From: Lachnospiraceae bacterium
Lineage (GTDB): Bacteria > Bacillota > Clostridia > Lachnospirales > Lachnospiraceae
Reading direction: 5' to 3'
NCBI GenBank assembly: GCA_024699395.1
Contig: JAILPU010000011.1
Location: forward strand, 1 to 6,502
DNA length: 6,502 bases
The notes beneath the pieces were generated by a model, which worked only from the letters and a program-made list of their open reading frames with translations, had not been told where the DNA came from and did not search any database. Of the stretch, positions 1 through 6,502 are shown in pieces. Position 1 is the first letter of the stretch. The number at the start of each line of letters is the position of its first letter. The translations under genes and the position numbers were made by a program.

Positions 1-189
1 GGTAGTCAGATGATGGATAGAGTTTTGATGGATATTAAGAATTCTGGATATTCAGAAGTTGTACTATGGGTATTTCGGGATAATCTCTCTTCTAGGGCTT
101 TCTATGAAACAAAAGGATTTGCGCTGACGGGGATTTCACAGCCAGCGTTTGGTACAGAAGAAGTCCTTTATTCTAAAAGATTACAATAA
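1..189 (+). CDS. GNAT-family N-acetyltransferase, C-terminal end (5' truncated by window)
   Basis: Frame 1 is open from the first base to TAA at 187-189, giving the last 62 residues of a protein that starts outside the window. The segment GYSEVVLWVFRDNLSSRAFYE followed by KGF is the characteristic end of the GNAT fold: a strand with the V-L-W-V pattern, then the N-x-x-S-R-A-F-Y-E helix and the K-G-F turn that closes the acetyl-CoA site. GNAT enzymes move an acetyl group from acetyl-CoA to an amine. The substrate cannot be told from this fragment, because specificity lies mostly in the missing part. It faces toward the 590-residue minus-strand gene and is probably host DNA flanking the central module. 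Confidence in the fold is high; the function is open. Confidence 0.9.
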   Translation, partial: GSQMMDRVLMDIKNSGYSEVVLWVFRDNLSSRAFYETKGFALTGISQPAFGTEEVLYSKRLQ

Positions 190-234
190 GGTGAATTTCT
201 GTATGTTGGGCTGAAGTTTTAGCACGTTATATCG

Positions 235-254
235 GAAGTTAATCGCACAACTTC
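235..254. repeat. Inverted repeat GAAGTT-N8-AACTTC
   Basis: A perfect 6-bp inverted repeat (235-240 and 249-254) lies about 45 bp after the acetyltransferase stop. No T-run follows it directly, so it is not a convincing terminator. It could be a binding site or chance. A related GAAGTT lies just upstream, at about 213. Confidence 0.4.
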
Positions 255-298
255 AAGTTTGTCGAAATGAGCGATAGAACATAATATTTGATGTGAAC

Positions 299-330
299 CT
301 TGGTAAAAAAGTCAGAATTACCGAGATTTT
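299..330 (+). terminator. Possible terminator of the acetyltransferase gene (weak)
   Basis: CTTGGTAA (299-306) pairs with TTACCGAG (318-325) over 8 bp with one G-T wobble, around an 11-nt loop. In the plus direction it is followed by ATTTT, a short and weak U-tract. It sits between the ends of two convergent genes (plus gene ending at 189, minus gene ending at 351), where a terminator is expected. In the minus direction no U-run follows the stem. The stem is modest and the loop is long, so this is tentative. Confidence 0.35.
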
Positions 331-350
331 CATTGCTAGAACACTACTGT

Positions 351-2123
351 TTATACAACCTCTGAGTTTTTTCTATTACGTATAATGCTGTCGAATTCTG
401 CTTTCATGGTCTTATTAAATACGATGGAAGGCTCTGATCCGGCTTCGGTCATGGTCTTAAGATTATAATTATTTGAAGATAAGTCCTTTTCAGTTACGAA
501 AGATATGAAGGACTTATCTTTTTTTCCCGGAAAAAGTGCATAGCGAACGCTGTAAGCGGATTCCCCGCAAAAATGAACTATATCCTCATCATTGTTGCAG
601 ATACAGATAAGATGAATGATATGGTTAGATATATTACCGATATTTCTTGCGAAGTAAAGGCTTCTTATATATCCGCCAAGGTCTTTGCCAATATGCTCTA
701 TGCAGATACTGTAATCCTGCGAAATTTCGATCTCGTTTCTAAGCCGGAATGGCATTTGGGGGGTAGAGAGTATTTGACTATACTCTCTGATGGGGATGGT
801 AAGGCTGTCTTTGTCATAGTAACGATTAAGAGTCTCTATTATATCTTTCATGTAGCCTTTTGATAAAGGGTAGAAAAAACAGCTATAATTTGCCAAAAGG
901 CAGCTGGGAAGGACAAATACGGGATAACCGGATAAAAGGCAGGTAATCTCATCACTGGTTGGCTTTTCTTTAAGAATATTCGTGAGAAGATAGGTAAGAT
1001 TCGTAAACTTCTTCTTTGTATCATTGGCTTGTACATATCCGTAAAAGGCTTTTTTAAATATATTTGTTCCGTTTGATAAGGTTTCTATGTATTCTTTTAG
1101 ATCTTCTATGGTAAAGGTTACTGTCTCATACGAGTCTGACAGTTCTATTCCATATCGGGTAGAATAGTGCTTTATCGGTACAAGAGTCTTAACCAGAACG
1201 TTAAAGTTTGAAATCTTTGTTTTTGAAGTAATGCATGTGCCGGTGCAAATCAAAAGGTCCTCAAGGCACATTTTTAACTTTTTATCCATTGACATTTTAA
1301 AAGAACGGTAGAAGGAATAAAGATCCTTTTCACCGGATTTTTTCAATTCGCTGTAAAGTATATTGAGATCATTTATGTTAAATGCAGGTCTTGTACCGCT
1401 GAAGGGCAGATGCGATGAAAAAATAATGCAACTGTTAGTGTCTGTAAGCCCAAGGTGCTTATAGTTTCCAATCTTTCTTATAAGTGTCTGCATGGGCTCT
1501 GTACCCATATCTTCTTCTACATATAGCTTAAAGTTCCGATTGTCTTGAAAATAAACGGTTGCATCTATGCAAAGGCCCCCCCTTTGTTTGGATTGTTTAG
1601 AAAAGGAATGTGTTTCCTCTTTTTCAAAACAAAAAGGAGTCCTTAAGAGCATTAAGGATAAAAGGCTCATACCAAGGCCATAGTCATGAGCTGTGACCAT
1701 ATCCCCGGATCGTCTTATCTTAAAAGATCCCAGAGCTGGCTTTAAGCTGTCCGGAAGGTGCTTGGCTAACTCCTTATATCCATCTTTTGTAAGCCTCAAG
1801 GCTTTTCTTGAAGACATATCAGGTGTGGCGAACTTAAGGGAGCTTAAATTTGCCCCCCTCCCCTGGGTGAGTCTATAGGCTCTGTTCTTTGTTGTTTGTG
1901 CTACAAAGAAGGGACCAAAGAAGAAGTTAAGTTCATTTAAGCTTACATTGTAGCCAAGATAAGAGAGGAACGAAAGAATGAAGGAAGTATAATAGTCATA
2001 ATTGGACACAAAGTCTATATCCTTGAATGATTCTTTTATGAACAGGACCATTTCTTTGTCATTCTTTATATCAGGGAAAAAGTTATTGAGATAGATTTTA
2101 TTGGAATCTGTAAGTTTTATCAT
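351..2123 (-). CDS. Replication-relaxation (MobC-like, Replic_Relax) family protein with long C-terminal extension
   Basis: The 590-residue protein starts at ATG 2123, preceded by GGAGA with a 6-base spacer. Its first half follows the order of features I associate with the Replic_Relax family of plasmid and integrative-element proteins. These are a winged-helix-like part ending in RLTKDGYKEL (110-119), H146-D147-Y148 (family 'HDL'), D187 in IDATVYF (family 'PDA'), and the signature E-E-D-M-G-T-E-P (203-210) followed by K217 and Y221, matching the usual E-x-D-R-G-T-E...K...Y. The D187/E203-E204/K217 set resembles a PD-(D/E)xK nuclease core, but activity is not established for the family. Residues from about 230 to 590 are not recognised; they are rich in Cys, Tyr and Ile with no clear membrane segment or signal peptide. 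It has its own promoter and repeat array upstream and lies in the same direction as the polymerase-like gene. The likely role is DNA binding in replication or mobilisation of an element, which is inferred. Confidence 0.65.
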   Translation of the reverse strand: MIKLTDSNKIYLNNFFPDIKNDKEMVLFIKESFKDIDFVSNYDYYTSFILSFLSYLGYNVSLNELNFFFGPFFVAQTTKNRAYRLTQGRGANLSSLKFATPDMSSRKALRLTKDGYKELAKHLPDSLKPALGSFKIRRSGDMVTAHDYGLGMSLLSLMLLRTPFCFEKEETHSFSKQSKQRGGLCIDATVYFQDNRNFKLYVEEDMGTEPMQTLIRKIGNYKHLGLTDTNSCIIFSSHLPFSGTRPAFNINDLNILYSELKKSGEKDLYSFYRSFKMSMDKKLKMCLEDLLICTGTCITSKTKISNFNVLVKTLVPIKHYSTRYGIELSDSYETVTFTIEDLKEYIETLSNGTNIFKKAFYGYVQANDTKKKFTNLTYLLTNILKEKPTSDEITCLLSGYPVFVLPSCLLANYSCFFYPLSKGYMKDIIETLNRYYDKDSLTIPIREYSQILSTPQMPFRLRNEIEISQDYSICIEHIGKDLGGYIRSLYFARNIGNISNHIIHLICICNNDEDIVHFCGESAYSVRYALFPGKKDKSFISFVTEKDLSSNNYNLKTMTEAGSEPSIVFNKTMKAEFDSIIRNRKNSEVV

Positions 2124-2129
2124 TGAAAG

Positions 2130-2134
2130 TCTCC
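2130..2134 (-). promoter_or_regulatory. Ribosome binding site of the replication-relaxation gene
   Basis: The minus strand reads GGAGA, then CTTTCA, then the ATG at 2123. The match and spacing support this start. Confidence 0.75.
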
Positions 2135-2210
2135 AAAAAATGAAATCACAAAAGAAGTCTTATTTAAATGTTTCTTAGGAAAAATGAAGAATATTTAAAA
2201 GGTTAAATCA

Positions 2211-2236
2211 AGGGGATGGGAGAGGGGGTTCTTATT
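2211..2236. other. G-rich tract in the 5' leader region, partly complementary to the upstream repeats
   Basis: The plus strand carries G4 (2212-2215), G3 (2218-2220) and G5 (2224-2228) within 17 bp, followed by TTCTTATT. The leader RNA of the replication-relaxation gene is therefore C-rich here (AACCCCCU...CCC...CCCC). GGGGGTTCTTATT resembles the reverse complement of the AATAACCCCT repeats with a short insertion. A read-through transcript from the polymerase-like gene could thus pair the two. There are only three G-runs, so a classical four-run quadruplex is not formed by this tract alone. Confidence 0.4.
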
Positions 2237-2268
2237 TTAGTAATTATCAGCGGTTTTTAACTGTTAGA

Positions 2269-2291
2269 AAAGCCGGATTTTATAAGGCTTT
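2269..2291. repeat. Inverted repeat AAAGCC-N11-GGCTTT, candidate operator
   Basis: The perfect 6-bp arms at 2269-2274 and 2286-2291 enclose an 11-bp spacer, and the -10 box (2279-2284) lies wholly within that spacer. A dimeric protein bound here would block RNA polymerase, so an operator for autoregulation or repression is a natural reading. That role is inferred. The symmetry itself is read directly from the sequence. Confidence 0.6.
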
Positions 2292-2307
2292 GCACTTGAT
2301 TTGGCAA
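2279..2307 (-). promoter_or_regulatory. Sigma-70/sigma-A type promoter for the replication-relaxation gene
   Basis: The minus strand carries TTGCCA (-35, 2307-2302; 5 of 6 to consensus), a spacer of exactly 17 bp, and TATAAA (-10, 2284-2279; 5 of 6). Transcription would start near 2272, giving a leader of about 150 nt before the ATG at 2123. It is the clearest promoter in the window, and it implies that this gene is expressed separately from the polymerase-like gene upstream. Confidence 0.7.
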
Positions 2308-2313
2308 AAACTC

Positions 2314-2416
2314 TAATAACCCCTTAATAACCCCTAAAAAAACGTCTGAATTTGGCTTTTTTAGCGCCTTAAATAACCCCTAAGCGGAATGAATAAAGAA
2401 AGTTGGAATAACCCCT
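2314..2416. repeat. Iteron-like direct repeats, four copies of AATAACCCCT
   Basis: Exact 10-bp copies lie at 2315-2324, 2326-2335, 2372-2381 and 2407-2416, all in the same orientation. The first two are perfect tandem 11-mers (TAATAACCCCT). Start-to-start distances are 11, 46 and 35 bp, close to whole or near-whole helical turns. They fill the gap between the stop of the polymerase-like gene (2423) and the -35 box of the replication-relaxation gene. Two roles fit: iterons of a replication origin bound by an initiator, or activator/repressor sites upstream of the promoter. The context (replication-type genes on both sides) favours the first but does not prove it. Confidence 0.8.
2354..2370. 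repeat. GGCTTTTTTAGCGCCTT motif between repeats 2 and 3
   Basis: GGC (2354-2356) and GCC (2366-2368) flank a T-run to give a short imperfect dyad. A close relative, AGGCTTTTTAGCCTTT, occurs on the minus strand at 4893-4878 in the other intergenic region. It may be a shared protein site. As a terminator for the polymerase-like gene it is poor in the minus direction, where no U-tract follows. Confidence 0.4.
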
Positions 2417-2422
2417 TGAAAA

Positions 2423-4714
2423 TCAATCAGTGCACTCACTATAAGATCTCATTTCGGCAATCCTATACTCAATTCCGCAGTTATCGACCTTTAGTGTTTT
2501 CTTTAACAGGAACCGGTTTATGAATGTTGATAAATACTCACAATCGTCCTTCCCAATAAAGAATATTACTTCATGAGCCTTGATTGACAGAATCATTATG
2601 TCGCAGCTGTAAAAGGTATCTGTCGAATAAAGAGTGGCCAAAAGCTCCATAATCATTTTTGAAGCACCATTTCTGCCGTTTATGGATAGGGAATAAACTG
2701 AGCCATCTACTTCAAATTTGTCCGGTATTACCGTGTTAGATATAAAGAGACCGGCTATTTTTGATGTAAAAAGGCGTTCCTTACTTTTGGAGTATAGGCT
2801 CTGATAATATGAGATTCCCATCGCCTGATAATAGTTGTTTATGGTTTTTAGCTGTTCAATAAAGCCGCATTTTGTTATCTTTGTCCTTAATCCCTTAAAG
2901 AGACGCTTATAATCATGAATATATTTTAGTGCCATATTGTCGATGGTTCCTTTTGGGGAAATGGTTATACCGCCTTTTGCCTTTTTTGCATTAAAGATTT
3001 CAAGGACCCATTCGGGATCGTATGAGTGGAAGGGTAGTAAAACGGATGAAACCGCAAACAATGAGTAAAGGGACCGTACTTTTATGCCCAGATTTGCCAA
3101 TATACCCATGATCATAAACGGATTATAGGTGTATTTTTCAATCTTTGAATGGGAAAAAATGGGTTTTAATATGTTTAACATCGCTGAATCCCTAATATCC
3201 GTACTAAAATAGGCGTGAAGCCTTTGAACGAAGAAGACTATCACGAAACTTTTATTATATGTGCGGCAAAGCTCGAAACTGAGGCATTCGTCTCTTAAAA
3301 CGTGGTTTTTAAAGTATGAGATTAGTCTTGAATCTGAGCTTTCCAAAGATATGGTGAATCTTTTAAGGTCATCCTTTGAGATGTAAGGGATTCCCAAAAG
3401 GTCGGAGGTCATGTTCCCGTCACGATAGTAATCATCACGATCAATCTCTTTAATGACTATAGGTTCATTCTCGGATACTACATGGTTCCTTATTCTTTCT
3501 TCCGGAATGATTACAGAAAGGAACTTGTATGGAACCAGATGATGAGGGGATATTTCTGGTTCTTTACTTATGTCATCAGAAGAGTTGTTGTTATTTGCGG
3601 ACGTTTCTGTTGTCTCGTTAGGAATTCCAGCTATTTGAAAAGACTCGTTTAGTTGTTCTTGTGCCTTTTCGGTATTAGCATTTGTGCTAAGGATGATATT
3701 GGAAGAAGCAGCATCTAATTCCTCGTCAATGTTCTCGGTAATCTTCTCCAAATCTAAAAAGTCTAGATTTGCCTTTTTTGTAGGCTTTTTCTTTTTGTTT
3801 TGTGACTTGTTTTTTGGTGGGTTATAAAAGGAGTCACACTCGGATATACCAAGAGCTGTATTTTTTTCGTTTGTCACACCGTTTTTCTGATTAATAGAGG
3901 AGATGTCTTTTAAAAGTTCTGTATAACAATCACCGGTATCAGGCATGATCTTTTTTAGAGAGGAAGAGAAAAGTTCTTCGTTACAGGCTTTGTCCGGAAG
4001 CATGTTCAGGATCATAGCTTTACAGAATGATGAGATGTCTGCTTTGCATTTTTTTATCGTAAGCCCATTTTCTTTAAGTTTCTTTAGATGGACCGGTTCC
4101 AGTACATCTTTGTAGTCCATACCCTCGTCAAAGATATCGGAAATAACGGTTTCATCAGATAATGCTTCAAAAGTGTATTTATAAAATGGATATATAAAAG
4201 GCTTATCGGCTGCGGACATCTGGTCAAGGACGTTGGTAACGGAATTAAACAGATCCGCTGTAAGACTGTAGGAAAGCAGTTTTTTGGCATTTTCTCTGGA
4301 TTCAAGGGCAAATCTTATGATATTTTTCTCATATTCGATGTTTTTATTTGTGTATTTTTTTGATAAGGGGCAAAGAGCGCAGGCAGTACACTTTTTATCG
4401 GTAATCTTATAATATTGGTCACAGGTTTTATATAGGATTACGGATCCATCCATAAATACGTCATCGCAAAAGGACATCCCTTTCGTGTGCCTGTGCCATG
4501 CCATATAATCATAGTCAAAGACGCGAGAACTAAAGTTTGAGGAGAGTAGTAGTAGGGAATTAGTCACATCTTCTTGAGATATTCCGGCATTAAGCATTGA
4601 ACAGACGTAGTTTTTTACAAAAACCTTGGCATCGTTTTCGTCTGATAGTTTTTTAAGTATGTATTTATAGCATGGAAGACCTTCCATGTATACTTTTTGT
4701 GAGTATTTTGGCAT
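2423..4714 (-). CDS. Reduced, probably inactive family A DNA polymerase (PolA)-like protein with N-terminal cysteine cluster
   Basis: The 763-residue protein starts at ATG 4714 behind GAGG with a 7-base spacer. An upstream in-frame GTG at 4777 has no ribosome site. Domains in order: residues 1-130 hold LPC15, then C98, C109, C112 and C115 (CxxCxxC), a likely metal or Fe-S site. About 300-390 is a Lys-rich then Ser/Asn/Thr/Glu-rich linker. About 475-575 resembles the PolA 3'-5' exonuclease: ILKPIFSHSKIEKYTYNPF, then ANLGIKV, matching 'LKPLL-D--I-K-G-N-KYD...L---GI'. The end of the protein resembles the PolA palm: SINGRNGASKM (677-687) for 'AINTPIQGTAADI', then KAHEVIFF (712-719) for the 'VHDELVFE' motif. 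Exo I acids (around F480-E481-L482-C483), the Exo II Asp (I535) and the HDE acids (H714-E715-V716) are altered. Only about 100 residues separate the two modules, so palm motif A and the fingers appear to be missing. Likely a non-catalytic replication or DNA-binding protein (inferred). Confidence 0.55.
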   Translation of the reverse strand: MPKYSQKVYMEGLPCYKYILKKLSDENDAKVFVKNYVCSMLNAGISQEDVTNSLLLLSSNFSSRVFDYDYMAWHRHTKGMSFCDDVFMDGSVILYKTCDQYYKITDKKCTACALCPLSKKYTNKNIEYEKNIIRFALESRENAKKLLSYSLTADLFNSVTNVLDQMSAADKPFIYPFYKYTFEALSDETVISDIFDEGMDYKDVLEPVHLKKLKENGLTIKKCKADISSFCKAMILNMLPDKACNEELFSSSLKKIMPDTGDCYTELLKDISSINQKNGVTNEKNTALGISECDSFYNPPKNKSQNKKKKPTKKANLDFLDLEKITENIDEELDAASSNIILSTNANTEKAQEQLNESFQIAGIPNETTETSANNNNSSDDISKEPEISPHHLVPYKFLSVIIPEERIRNHVVSENEPIVIKEIDRDDYYRDGNMTSDLLGIPYISKDDLKRFTISLESSDSRLISYFKNHVLRDECLSFELCRTYNKSFVIVFFVQRLHAYFSTDIRDSAMLNILKPIFSHSKIEKYTYNPFMIMGILANLGIKVRSLYSLFAVSSVLLPFHSYDPEWVLEIFNAKKAKGGITISPKGTIDNMALKYIHDYKRLFKGLRTKITKCGFIEQLKTINNYYQAMGISYYQSLYSKSKERLFTSKIAGLFISNTVIPDKFEVDGSVYSLSINGRNGASKMIMELLATLYSTDTFYSCDIMILSIKAHEVIFFIGKDDCEYLSTFINRFLLKKTLKVDNCGIEYRIAEMRSYSECTD

Positions 4715-4721
4715 ATTAAAA

Positions 4722-4725
4722 CCTC
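4722..4725 (-). promoter_or_regulatory. Ribosome binding site deciding the start of the PolA-like gene
   Basis: The minus strand reads GAGG, then TTTTAAT, then ATG at 4714. The longer GTG start (4777) would add a phenylalanine-rich stretch and lacks any purine-rich site, so the ATG at 4714 is preferred. Confidence 0.7.
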
Positions 4726-4869
4726 GCGTTACTTTGACAATCGAACAACTGTTTGCTAAAATAAAAAAGAAAAACACCCAAAAATACGTTAATTCTTGCG
4801 TGTTTATGTGAAGATCAATATTTAATATTTAAAAGCAAAGGAATTACCTCTAATTTATCACTTAATTTT

Positions 4870-4898
4870 TTGAAAGTAAAGGCTAAAAAGCCTACAGA
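4870..4898 (+). promoter_or_regulatory. Possible weak promoter of the recombinase gene
   Basis: TTGAAA (4870-4875; 5 of 6 to the -35 consensus) is followed after 17 bp by TACAGA (4893-4898; only 3 of 6 to the -10 consensus). The hairpin AGGCT-AAAA-AGCCT overlaps the spacer, so a factor bound there would affect transcription. The weak -10 makes this tentative. Confidence 0.3.
4880..4893. repeat. Perfect hairpin AGGCT-AAAA-AGCCT
   Basis: A 5-bp stem with a 4-nt loop. On the minus strand it reads AGGCTTTTTAGCCT, close to GGCTTTTTTAGCGCCT at 2354-2369. No proper U-run follows in either direction, so a shared protein-binding site is more likely than a terminator. Confidence 0.5.
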
Positions 4899-4903
4899 AC
4901 TCA

Positions 4904-4916
4904 TATCATTTTGATA
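4904..4916. repeat. Palindrome TATCA-TTT-TGATA
   Basis: A perfect 13-bp palindrome in the recombinase upstream region. Its right arm begins TGATAAGATT (4912-4921), which recurs with one change as TCATAAGATT at 4959-4968, 47 bp further on. The pair may be operator or recombinase-binding half-sites; the role is inferred. Confidence 0.5.
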
Positions 4917-4941
4917 AGATTATTAATAAAGGTAGTCTAAA

Positions 4942-4963
4942 TATGAATCAAAAGTGGTTCATA
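4942..4963. repeat. Inverted repeat TATGAATC-N6-GGTTCATA
   Basis: The 8-bp arms (4942-4949 and 4956-4963) have one G-T mismatch and a 6-nt loop. The right arm runs into the TCATAAGATT direct repeat. It overlaps the beginning of the short reading frame at 4943 and lies about 65 bp before the recombinase start. Confidence 0.5.
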
Positions 4964-4984
4964 AGATTCTGCACGGTGAGGTAA
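4943..4984 (+). CDS. Possible 13-residue leader peptide (doubtful)
   Basis: ATG at 4943 opens a frame reading MNQKWFIRFCTVR and stops at TAA 4982-4984, 42 bp before the recombinase ATG. AAAGG at 4928-4932 could be a ribosome site, but the 10-base spacing is long. Its start lies inside an inverted repeat, as in translational leaders. There is no run of a single amino acid to suggest attenuation. A frame this short arises easily by chance. Confidence 0.15.
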   Translation: MNQKWFIRFCTVR

Positions 4985-5015
4985 AAGAGCTTTATTCCGT
5001 TATTATTGATGAAAC

Positions 5016-5023
5016 AGGGGGAG
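5016..5023 (+). promoter_or_regulatory. Strong ribosome binding site of the recombinase gene
   Basis: AGGGGGAG lies a few bases before ATG 5027. The in-frame upstream codons TTG 5006 and ATG 5009 have no such site, and this purine tract would lie inside the coding region if they were used. The start is therefore placed at 5027. Confidence 0.8.
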
Positions 5024-5026
5024 CAA

Positions 5027-5950
5027 ATGGGAGAGAAGAGCGAATTTTGGAGTGAAAGGTTTATTCAGATTTTCAATGAATTCTTATGCACCTCCAACAT
5101 TGCGTCGACATCGGCCAATAGGTACTGGTCGTATGTTAAAATTATCTGTGATCAACTTTGCAAGGACTTTTTGGATATAGATCAAAAGGATGTTACAAGA
5201 TATTTTGATAAACTCCAGCAGAAGGTATATACAAATGAGATTTCCTTACATACAGTTTGTTGCAGAAGATCTCTTTTTAACAAGCTAGCGGAGTATTTGG
5301 TATTATATTATCCTGATTATTATACGGATAATCCTTTTGCAAATATCTTTATTAAGGACAGTAAAGCATATGTAAAAGCTACTTCGATACCATCTCTGGA
5401 AGAACTTAACAGGTTTCTTTATGCTTGTAAGAGAAATTTCATGCATTTCTTGTTATATTCGATGGTGCTTAGGATGGGCATTAAGAGCACGGAATTAATA
5501 AATTTAAAGAAAGAGCATGTCATCAGAGACGGCGATTGCTGTTTTATCTATATCGAGTCACGGGAAAAGTATGGATCTTTAAGCATTATTCCTATGCCTT
5601 CTGATATAATAAGACTGTATAATGAGTTTGAAGGCTTAGAGAATCCTAACAGAGAGTACCTTTTTACAAACTCAAGAAATGAAAAGCTTTCAATAACGAC
5701 GATATCAAGGCTAACAAAGAAATATCTTAATATGGCCGCTATTGACAATCATTACACGTTAAAGGATTTTAGAAACAGAGCGGTTCTCGATGTGATTGAG
5801 TCTCGTGACAAGAAGGGTTTAACTTACAATGAGGATGTAGCTACTTATTTTTCTTTGAAGGATAAGAGGATGAATATCCTTAAAGATGCTCACTATCTTG
5901 CGATAAATAACCCGGTGGAAGATTCCGATTTGAAAATAATAGCAATGTAG
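5027..5950 (+). CDS. Tyrosine recombinase/integrase-like protein with altered catalytic residues
   Basis: This 307-residue protein has the usual length and two-part design of a phage-integrase-type recombinase. Residues about 5-100 form an N-terminal SAM-like core-binding domain (FNEFLCTSNIASTSANRYWS, then a helix-rich stretch). The catalytic domain begins near IPSLEELNRFLYAC (121-134). VLRMGIKSTELINLKKEHV (147-165) matches the 'GLRISELLALKWEDI' box but has K153 where the first catalytic Arg is expected. The beta-hairpin Lys is probably K181 (SREKYGSLSIIPMP). The HxxR box is K246-D-F-R249: the Arg is kept and His is replaced by Lys. The third box (VATYFSLKDKRMN) has no clear His or Trp. A Tyr is present at 290 (DAHYL), about four residues later than expected from the third box. 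It is an integrase-family protein with reduced or changed chemistry; it may bind DNA without cutting. It is divergent from the polymerase-like gene and is followed by the Sel1-repeat gene after 55 bp. Confidence 0.75.
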   Translation: MGEKSEFWSERFIQIFNEFLCTSNIASTSANRYWSYVKIICDQLCKDFLDIDQKDVTRYFDKLQQKVYTNEISLHTVCCRRSLFNKLAEYLVLYYPDYYTDNPFANIFIKDSKAYVKATSIPSLEELNRFLYACKRNFMHFLLYSMVLRMGIKSTELINLKKEHVIRDGDCCFIYIESREKYGSLSIIPMPSDIIRLYNEFEGLENPNREYLFTNSRNEKLSITTISRLTKKYLNMAAIDNHYTLKDFRNRAVLDVIESRDKKGLTYNEDVATYFSLKDKRMNILKDAHYLAINNPVEDSDLKIIAM

Positions 5951-6005
5951 TGTTGGTTCAATCTGTCGAATGCTAACAAAAAAACATTAGAAATGAGATA
6001 GAGTA

Positions 6006-6502
6006 GTGAATACAGAAGATTATATTAAGGCTTGTTCGTCGTTGGAAGATGTTATAAACAAGGGAATCAGTTTACTTCAGGATAATGAAAGCTTGAGTGA
6101 AGCATTGAAATTGTTTAAGTATGCGGATGCTAAAGGAAATTCGGATGGGAGCTACTGGCTGGGAGTGGCTTTTCAAGAACAAAAATCCTTTGAAGAAGCA
6201 TTGATGTATTATAATAAAGCTGCTCAAAACGGAAATAGCAGAGCTGAAAATCGCATTGCGCTTATGTATGCACGGGGACTTGGGGTTCAAAAAGATGTTA
6301 GTCAGGCATTCATGTGGTTGGAAAGAGCTGCCAAGCATCATAGCTTGCAAGGTATTTGCAACCTTGCAGGTATGTACTGGTATGGATGCGGGATAGAAAT
6401 CAATAAAGAGTTAGCGCTTGGATTATGGCGATTTGCCGCGCAGAATGATGTGCAAAAGGCGGTTCAAATGTTGGAAATAGTCAATGAAAATGTTGATGGA
6501 CC
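6006..6502 (+). CDS. Sel1-repeat (TPR-like) protein, 3' truncated by window
   Basis: The frame is open from GTG 6006 to the window end, giving 165 residues; an in-frame TGA at 5994 excludes a longer start. The ribosome site is weak (GAGATAGAG with short spacing). From about residue 32 the sequence shows Sel1-like repeats: EALKLFKYADAKGNSDGSYWLG, EALMYYNKAAQNGNSRAENRIA followed by LMYARGLGVQKDVSQAFMW, and a third unit with LAGMYWYGCGIEINKELALGLW (118-141). The A-x-x-x-L/I-A-x-M-Y-x-x-G-x-G-V and W-x-x-x-A-A spacing of about 36 residues is typical. Such alpha-solenoids are protein-binding scaffolds; the partner is unknown. There is no signal peptide at the start. It may be co-transcribed with the recombinase (55-bp gap, no clear terminator) or may be host DNA beyond the end of an inserted element. 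Confidence 0.85.
   Translation, partial: MNTEDYIKACSSLEDVINKGISLLQDNESLSEALKLFKYADAKGNSDGSYWLGVAFQEQKSFEEALMYYNKAAQNGNSRAENRIALMYARGLGVQKDVSQAFMWLERAAKHHSLQGICNLAGMYWYGCGIEINKELALGLWRFAAQNDVQKAVQMLEIVNENVDG

Follow-up and report, generated by a model that had tools for sequence, protein, structure and literature searches.

The 6,502-nucleotide stretch analysed here, hereafter the window (contig JAILPU010000011.1, positions 1 to 6,502, of Lachnospiraceae bacterium assembly GCA_024699395.1), encodes P0001, a protein of 763 amino acids that contains a block whose homology to the 3'-5' exonuclease (proofreading) domain of DNA polymerase I (Pol I) is fairly secure by sequence comparison. The neighbouring gene product, P0002, is likely to be a DNA-nicking mobilization protein, predicted as a MOBC-type relaxase. 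Because P0001 adjoins this gene, it probably serves a mobile element as a DNA-binding helper rather than acting as a polymerase. The reading that we favour, tentatively and with a probability of approximately 0.4, is that P0001 is a non-catalytic DNA-binding accessory to the MOBC-type relaxase in a mobilization module.

A preliminary description of this DNA reported a long intact reading frame, and this was confirmed. All 763 codons are open on the minus strand, the chance of an equally long open run at the local base composition is approximately 2e-24, and the peptides quoted in that description were found no more than one residue from where it had placed them. An alternative start, a GTG at position 4777 upstream of the ATG, would give a product of 784 amino acids. 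The codon usage of P0001 correlates with that of P0002 at 0.85 in frame and at 0.38-0.39 out of frame. The protein consists of two halves separated by a Lys/Asn/Ser-rich linker that, judged by eye, is probably unstructured, and the N-terminal half contains a cluster of Cys residues that may form a metal site (Table 1).

The exonuclease-like block was tested using profiles built from 59 Pol I proteins (30 loci from the host genus and 30 from the phylum, less one 475-amino-acid fragment). Scores were compared with those of shuffled sequences and of 214 unrelated natural open reading frames (ORFs), i.e. 289 ORFs less 69 that were Pol I-like and six from the window. The exonuclease profile from all 59 proteins scored 15.1 bits against P0001, the shuffle maximum being 9.0 (2000 shuffles made, 1118 scored), and a wider cut of the domain from the same pooled proteins scored 13.4 bits, with a shuffle maximum of 5.8 (3000 made, 1755 scored). 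When the rows were split by source, those from the genus gave -0.9 bits and those from the phylum 19.7 bits; because the split came after the pooled test, it is the pooled scores that are free of selection. After realignment, the profile of the 29 Bacillota rows from outside the host genus scored 21.2 bits against the whole of P0001 (E = 1.1e-8 for a single sequence) and 23.2 bits against residues 398-763, where the shuffle maximum was 8.1 (3000 made, 1583 scored) and the best of the 214 natural ORFs reached 4.0 bits. This block, one of two regions that the preliminary description had assigned to PolA, is thus upheld above every shuffle and all of the natural ORFs.

PF01612 ranked first among 24,736 Pfam families for a 96-amino-acid piece (residues 476-571), at E = 0.045 and 14 bits with a cut-off of 23.6, and the scan of residues 398-763 as one piece listed none of these families at E up to 10. 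The whole Pol I profile from the host genus scored -2.3 bits, and hhalign with P0001 as a single sequence returned a probability of 0.3%. An exonuclease profile of seven rows chosen by a DxE pattern, the sites of which were mostly not true Exo I, scored -1.1 bits. A profile of active DEDDy exonucleases, made from eight of 10 picked proteins after the removal of a near-duplicate and of a protein that lacked the motif, scored 0.6 bits, a value equalled or exceeded by 151 of 1911 scored shuffles; that the active-domain profile misses P0001 agrees with kinship to inactivated Pol I exonuclease domains.

In an alignment with eight active and 17 inactive domains, in which the Exo motifs are numbered as in Pol I, the Asp and Glu of Exo I are replaced by E481 and C483, and the Asp of Exo II by I535. 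Both motifs had already been described as altered, and the alignment agrees; the Tyr/Asp pair of Exo III could not be aligned reliably in P0001. Since the alignable catalytic residues are replaced, P0001 is probably non-catalytic. To this extent the function first proposed for it, a non-catalytic clamp, DNA end binder or decoy, is retained; the specific roles had been put forward without regard to the neighbouring genes, which point to mobilization. The loss of exonuclease residues is not special to P0001, because approximately half of PolA1 proteins are described as substituted at the exonuclease site, with Firmicutes, Tenericutes, and Actinobacteria showing this most often (PMC12926913). In the Pol I of Bacillota, an inactive proofreading domain is nothing unusual.

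Profiles for the remaining parts of a family A polymerase gave no comparable signal. The palm-end profile, made by the 29-row method, scored 0.2 bits (208 of 1603 scored shuffles equal or better), a palm profile from the 59 proteins -1.1 bits (553 of 1029 as good), and a fingers profile 0.6 bits (339 of 2114 as good), while the 5' nuclease profile scored 0.0 bits and the motif A and thumb profiles gave no reported match. The whole-Klenow profile scored 8.6 bits, more than any of the 1991 scored shuffles, through an alignment that covers residues 500-565 only, i.e. the exonuclease part. A Pfam scan of residues 640-763 listed nothing at E up to 10, and PF00476 appeared neither in the Pfam scans of P0001 nor, at E up to 10, in a search of its own genome. 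Comparison with family A polymerase profiles therefore sustains one of the two blocks originally reported and does not confirm the other, a palm end containing the peptides SINGRNG and KAHEV, and the view of P0001 as a PolA that has lost its fingers finds no support in thumb, motif A, fingers, or palm.

These results bear on two alternative explanations of P0001. It might descend from a complete PolA, with the exonuclease and palm retained, the fingers deleted, and the remainder now serving as a clamp or end binder. In favour of this, the exonuclease block is genuine, the motifs picked by eye follow the PolA order, and the last 90 residues may be arranged as strand-helix-strand-strand-helix-strand, although this arrangement was taken from a low-confidence, unusable model; a minimal palm has this order, as do many other folds. 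A whole-PolA origin is nevertheless unsupported, because no polymerase part is detectable: the palm and fingers scores lie within the range of the shuffles, the Klenow score comes through the exonuclease part alone, and the C-terminal residues match no family. We regard this origin as decidedly improbable. At the other extreme, the exonuclease likeness itself might be due to chance or convergence, P0001 being an unrelated orphan of unknown fold. The signal varies with the Pol I proteins chosen for the profile, the block had been picked by eye beforehand, and the single-sequence structure model of residues 398-763 is unusable and gives no support (mean predicted local distance difference test score [pLDDT], 32.3; no residue at 50 or above). 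Against this, the E value of 1.1e-8 multiplied by 24,736 Pfam families is still approximately 3e-4, the shuffles and the 214 natural ORFs score far lower, and the scores from the pooled 59-protein profiles also exceed those of all shuffles, so that a chance match appears very doubtful.

The mobilization reading depends largely on P0002. This protein matched PF13814 (Replic_Relax) at E = 2.6e-4 and 21.6 bits, below the cut-off of 25.3 bits, and, with an E value of 1 as the limit, all six members of the P0002 family gave a PF13814 match, the best at 8.8e-6. A profile comparison with three other PF13814 proteins left this part unaligned; D187, E203, D205, E209, and K217 are invariant in the six sequences. 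The five relatives of P0002, at 30-35% identity, are known as proteins without genomic context. Four of them (P0003-P0006) share a C-terminal end like LSxSQLFSL, which is absent from P0002 and may be a short interaction motif. The structure model of P0002 (mean pLDDT, 62.8) has mainly nucleases among its top structural matches, which we take to be of the PD-(D/E)XK type, and further down the match list there are also CheY and subunits of RNA polymerase. A relationship of MOBC relaxases to the PD-(D/E)XK superfamily is described in PMC12857230, and PF13814 is given as the MobC relaxase domain in Table 1 of PMC5357655. Of three further PF13814 loci in the genus, two have a conjugative coupling protein gene adjoining the PF13814 gene, and this links the family with DNA transfer. 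None of these three loci contains a P0001-like gene (330 stop-to-stop frames searched in five loci; best E = 0.78), and a P0002-type locus was found only in the window itself among 138 genus, 392 order, and 397 family genomes, and nowhere beyond it in plasmids or phages, genome contigs, and viral contigs. A perfect 13-bp inverted repeat (AAGATAAGTCCTT / AAGGACTTATCTT; positions 476-520) is present within the P0002 gene.

P0001 and P0002 share the same orientation, with P0001 upstream, and are separated by four exact direct repeats of AATAACCCC, no further copy of which occurs on either strand of the window. The MOBC relaxase TraX of pAD1 is reported to bind five direct repeats in its origin of transfer (oriT), away from the nic site (PMC12857230), which makes a transfer-origin reading of the AATAACCCC array natural; we infer that it is a putative binding array of an oriT. 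The direct repeats, taken with the relaxase-like gene, suggest a function in DNA mobilization. A search of 138 genus genomes with the repeat pair at 2315-2335, allowing up to one mismatch, gave one match besides the window itself; this one-mismatch copy lies inside an ordinary gene of another genome and was dismissed as a chance match. No Rfam families were found, and no unusual fold was found in the intergenic strand.

If P0001 is an accessory to the relaxase, P0002 would bind or nick DNA at the AATAACCCC repeat region, and P0001 would use its inactive domain, presumably RNase H-like in fold, to hold the DNA or present it to P0002, and the N-terminal half, which contains the Cys cluster, would add further contacts; the two proteins would act together while the element is nicked and mobilized. 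The support for a mobilization module includes the common gene orientation, the in-frame codon correlation, and the nearby integrase. A more specific version, which we think unlikely, is that the element captured a Pol I proofreading domain, of the sort already inactive in the Pol I of Bacillota, and that this domain became the DNA-holding part of a new relaxosome accessory beside the MOBC-type relaxase, where a coupling protein is encoded at other loci of the genus; the final 90 residues would perhaps be a fingerless palm core. The same arrangement could instead belong to a replication module, in which P0001 would be the replication protein of the element (an initiator or primase-like protein) and the repeats would serve an origin of replication, as iterons, instead of an origin of transfer. 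PF13814 is named for replication-relaxation, the PHROGs family 'replication initiation by nicking' weakly matches P0002 (E = 0.0073), direct repeats are typical of origins, and the Cys cluster of P0001 recalls the zinc-binding parts of primases. However, scans of Pfam, NCBIfam, and PHROGs with E up to 1 matched P0001 to none of their initiator or primase families, and a role in replication seems to us improbable.

The case for an accessory role is limited in that it stands on one sequence. Searches of approximately 5.8 billion proteins returned only P0001 itself, among the 7994 best candidates scored for the whole protein and among 1752 candidates for residues 440-763. It matched only itself in 61 genomes including its own, and no relative was found in PDB sequences (best E values, 0.31 and 0.092), in plasmids and phages (tblastn), or in viral and genome contigs. 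The whole protein matches no family in Pfam, NCBIfam, and PHROGs, nor does the N-terminal half in Pfam scans. Because these searches depend on close identity or on words in common, a distant relative could escape detection.

Table 1. Features of the 6,502-nucleotide window. Residue numbers are those of P0001.
Feature	Position	Strand	Basis
GNAT acetyltransferase, end of gene	1-189		
P0002, 590 amino acids, PF13814-like (Replic_Relax / MOBC-type relaxase)	351..2123	-	family scan, relatives, model
AATAACCCC repeat 1	2315..2323	+	
AATAACCCC repeat 2	2326..2334	+	
AATAACCCC repeat 3	2372..2380	+	
AATAACCCC repeat 4	2407..2415	+	
P0001, orphan ORF, 763 amino acids, ATG start	2423..4714	-	ORF list; no homologue; codon usage
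Residues 672-763, previously proposed palm-end block, no profile signal	2426..2701	-	profiles
Residues ~471-562, match to Pol I 3'-5' exonuclease, alignable catalytic residues replaced	3029..3304	-	profiles, alignment
Residues 270-395, Lys/Asn/Ser-rich linker between the two halves	3530..3907	-	sequence
Cys cluster (C83, C98, C109, C112, C115, including a CxxCxxC run), N-terminal half	4370..4468	-	
Tyrosine recombinase / integrase, 314 amino acids	5006..5950	+ (opposite to P0001)	ORF list, family scans
Sel1-repeat ORF, cut by window end	6006 onward		

The source genome is incomplete (completeness, 76%; 333 contigs totalling 1.9 Mb), and no coupling protein is encoded on the 6.5-kb contig. As to attachment sites, positions 1-360 and 5930-6502 share no exact repeat of at least 11 bases, and a search of 138 genomes with the right flank of the window returned, apart from the flank itself, only two short matches. 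All other integrases found in the genus are distantly related to this one, the best relative having 27% identity (E = 3.0e-32). The genes surrounding its nearest relative read as ordinary chromosomal genes, and the integrase may therefore be a recombinase that stands alone and does not belong to the element. A promoter-like sequence (TTGACA-17-TAAAAT with TG, 11/12; positions 4734-4762, plus strand) is directed towards the integrase and lies just upstream of the P0001 ATG; the promoter scan found fewer sites than the mean count in shuffles.

Among the best-ranked literature titles, none describes an orphan non-polymerase protein with a dead proofreading domain beside a relaxase-like gene, or a Pol I exonuclease domain in a protein of the relaxosome. 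If P0001 is indeed a relaxase accessory, the inactive proofreading domain of a polymerase has been reused in DNA mobilization, outside any polymerase, and MOBC systems gain a large accessory of unknown architecture. The results also counsel caution, as of two PolA motifs recognized by eye the statistics uphold one and not the other.

Like the 3'-5' exonuclease of PolA1, P0001 matches over approximately 90 residues, including the helix-strand-helix core, and its catalytic positions are replaced, as is described for about half of PolA1 proteins (PMC12926913). Unlike PolA1, P0001 has no detectable polymerase core or 5' nuclease, and the domain is embedded in a 763-amino-acid protein. A dead exonuclease domain kept for another job is also described in the PolA2 / APEX polymerases, in which the vestigial domain bears a clamp-binding motif (PMC12926913); APEX keeps its polymerase, whereas P0001 has no clamp-binding motif of the patterns tested. 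The locus resembles the MOBC modules represented by CloDF13 MobC and pAD1 TraX in having the PF13814-like P0002 with direct repeats beside its gene (PMC12857230). In contrast to the other PF13814 loci of the genus, two of three of which have an adjacent coupling protein gene, P0001 occupies the adjacent place here, and the 6.5-kb contig also differs in lacking a coupling protein from two streptococcal elements in which a MobC relaxase is reported together with VirD4 (PMC5704250). The relaxosome auxiliary proteins described in PMC12857230 are of the ribbon-helix-helix and oligonucleotide/oligosaccharide-binding-fold types; P0001 is much larger and matched no family of either fold in the Pfam scans, but would resemble these proteins in the help proposed here, namely assisting the relaxase in the handling of oriT DNA.
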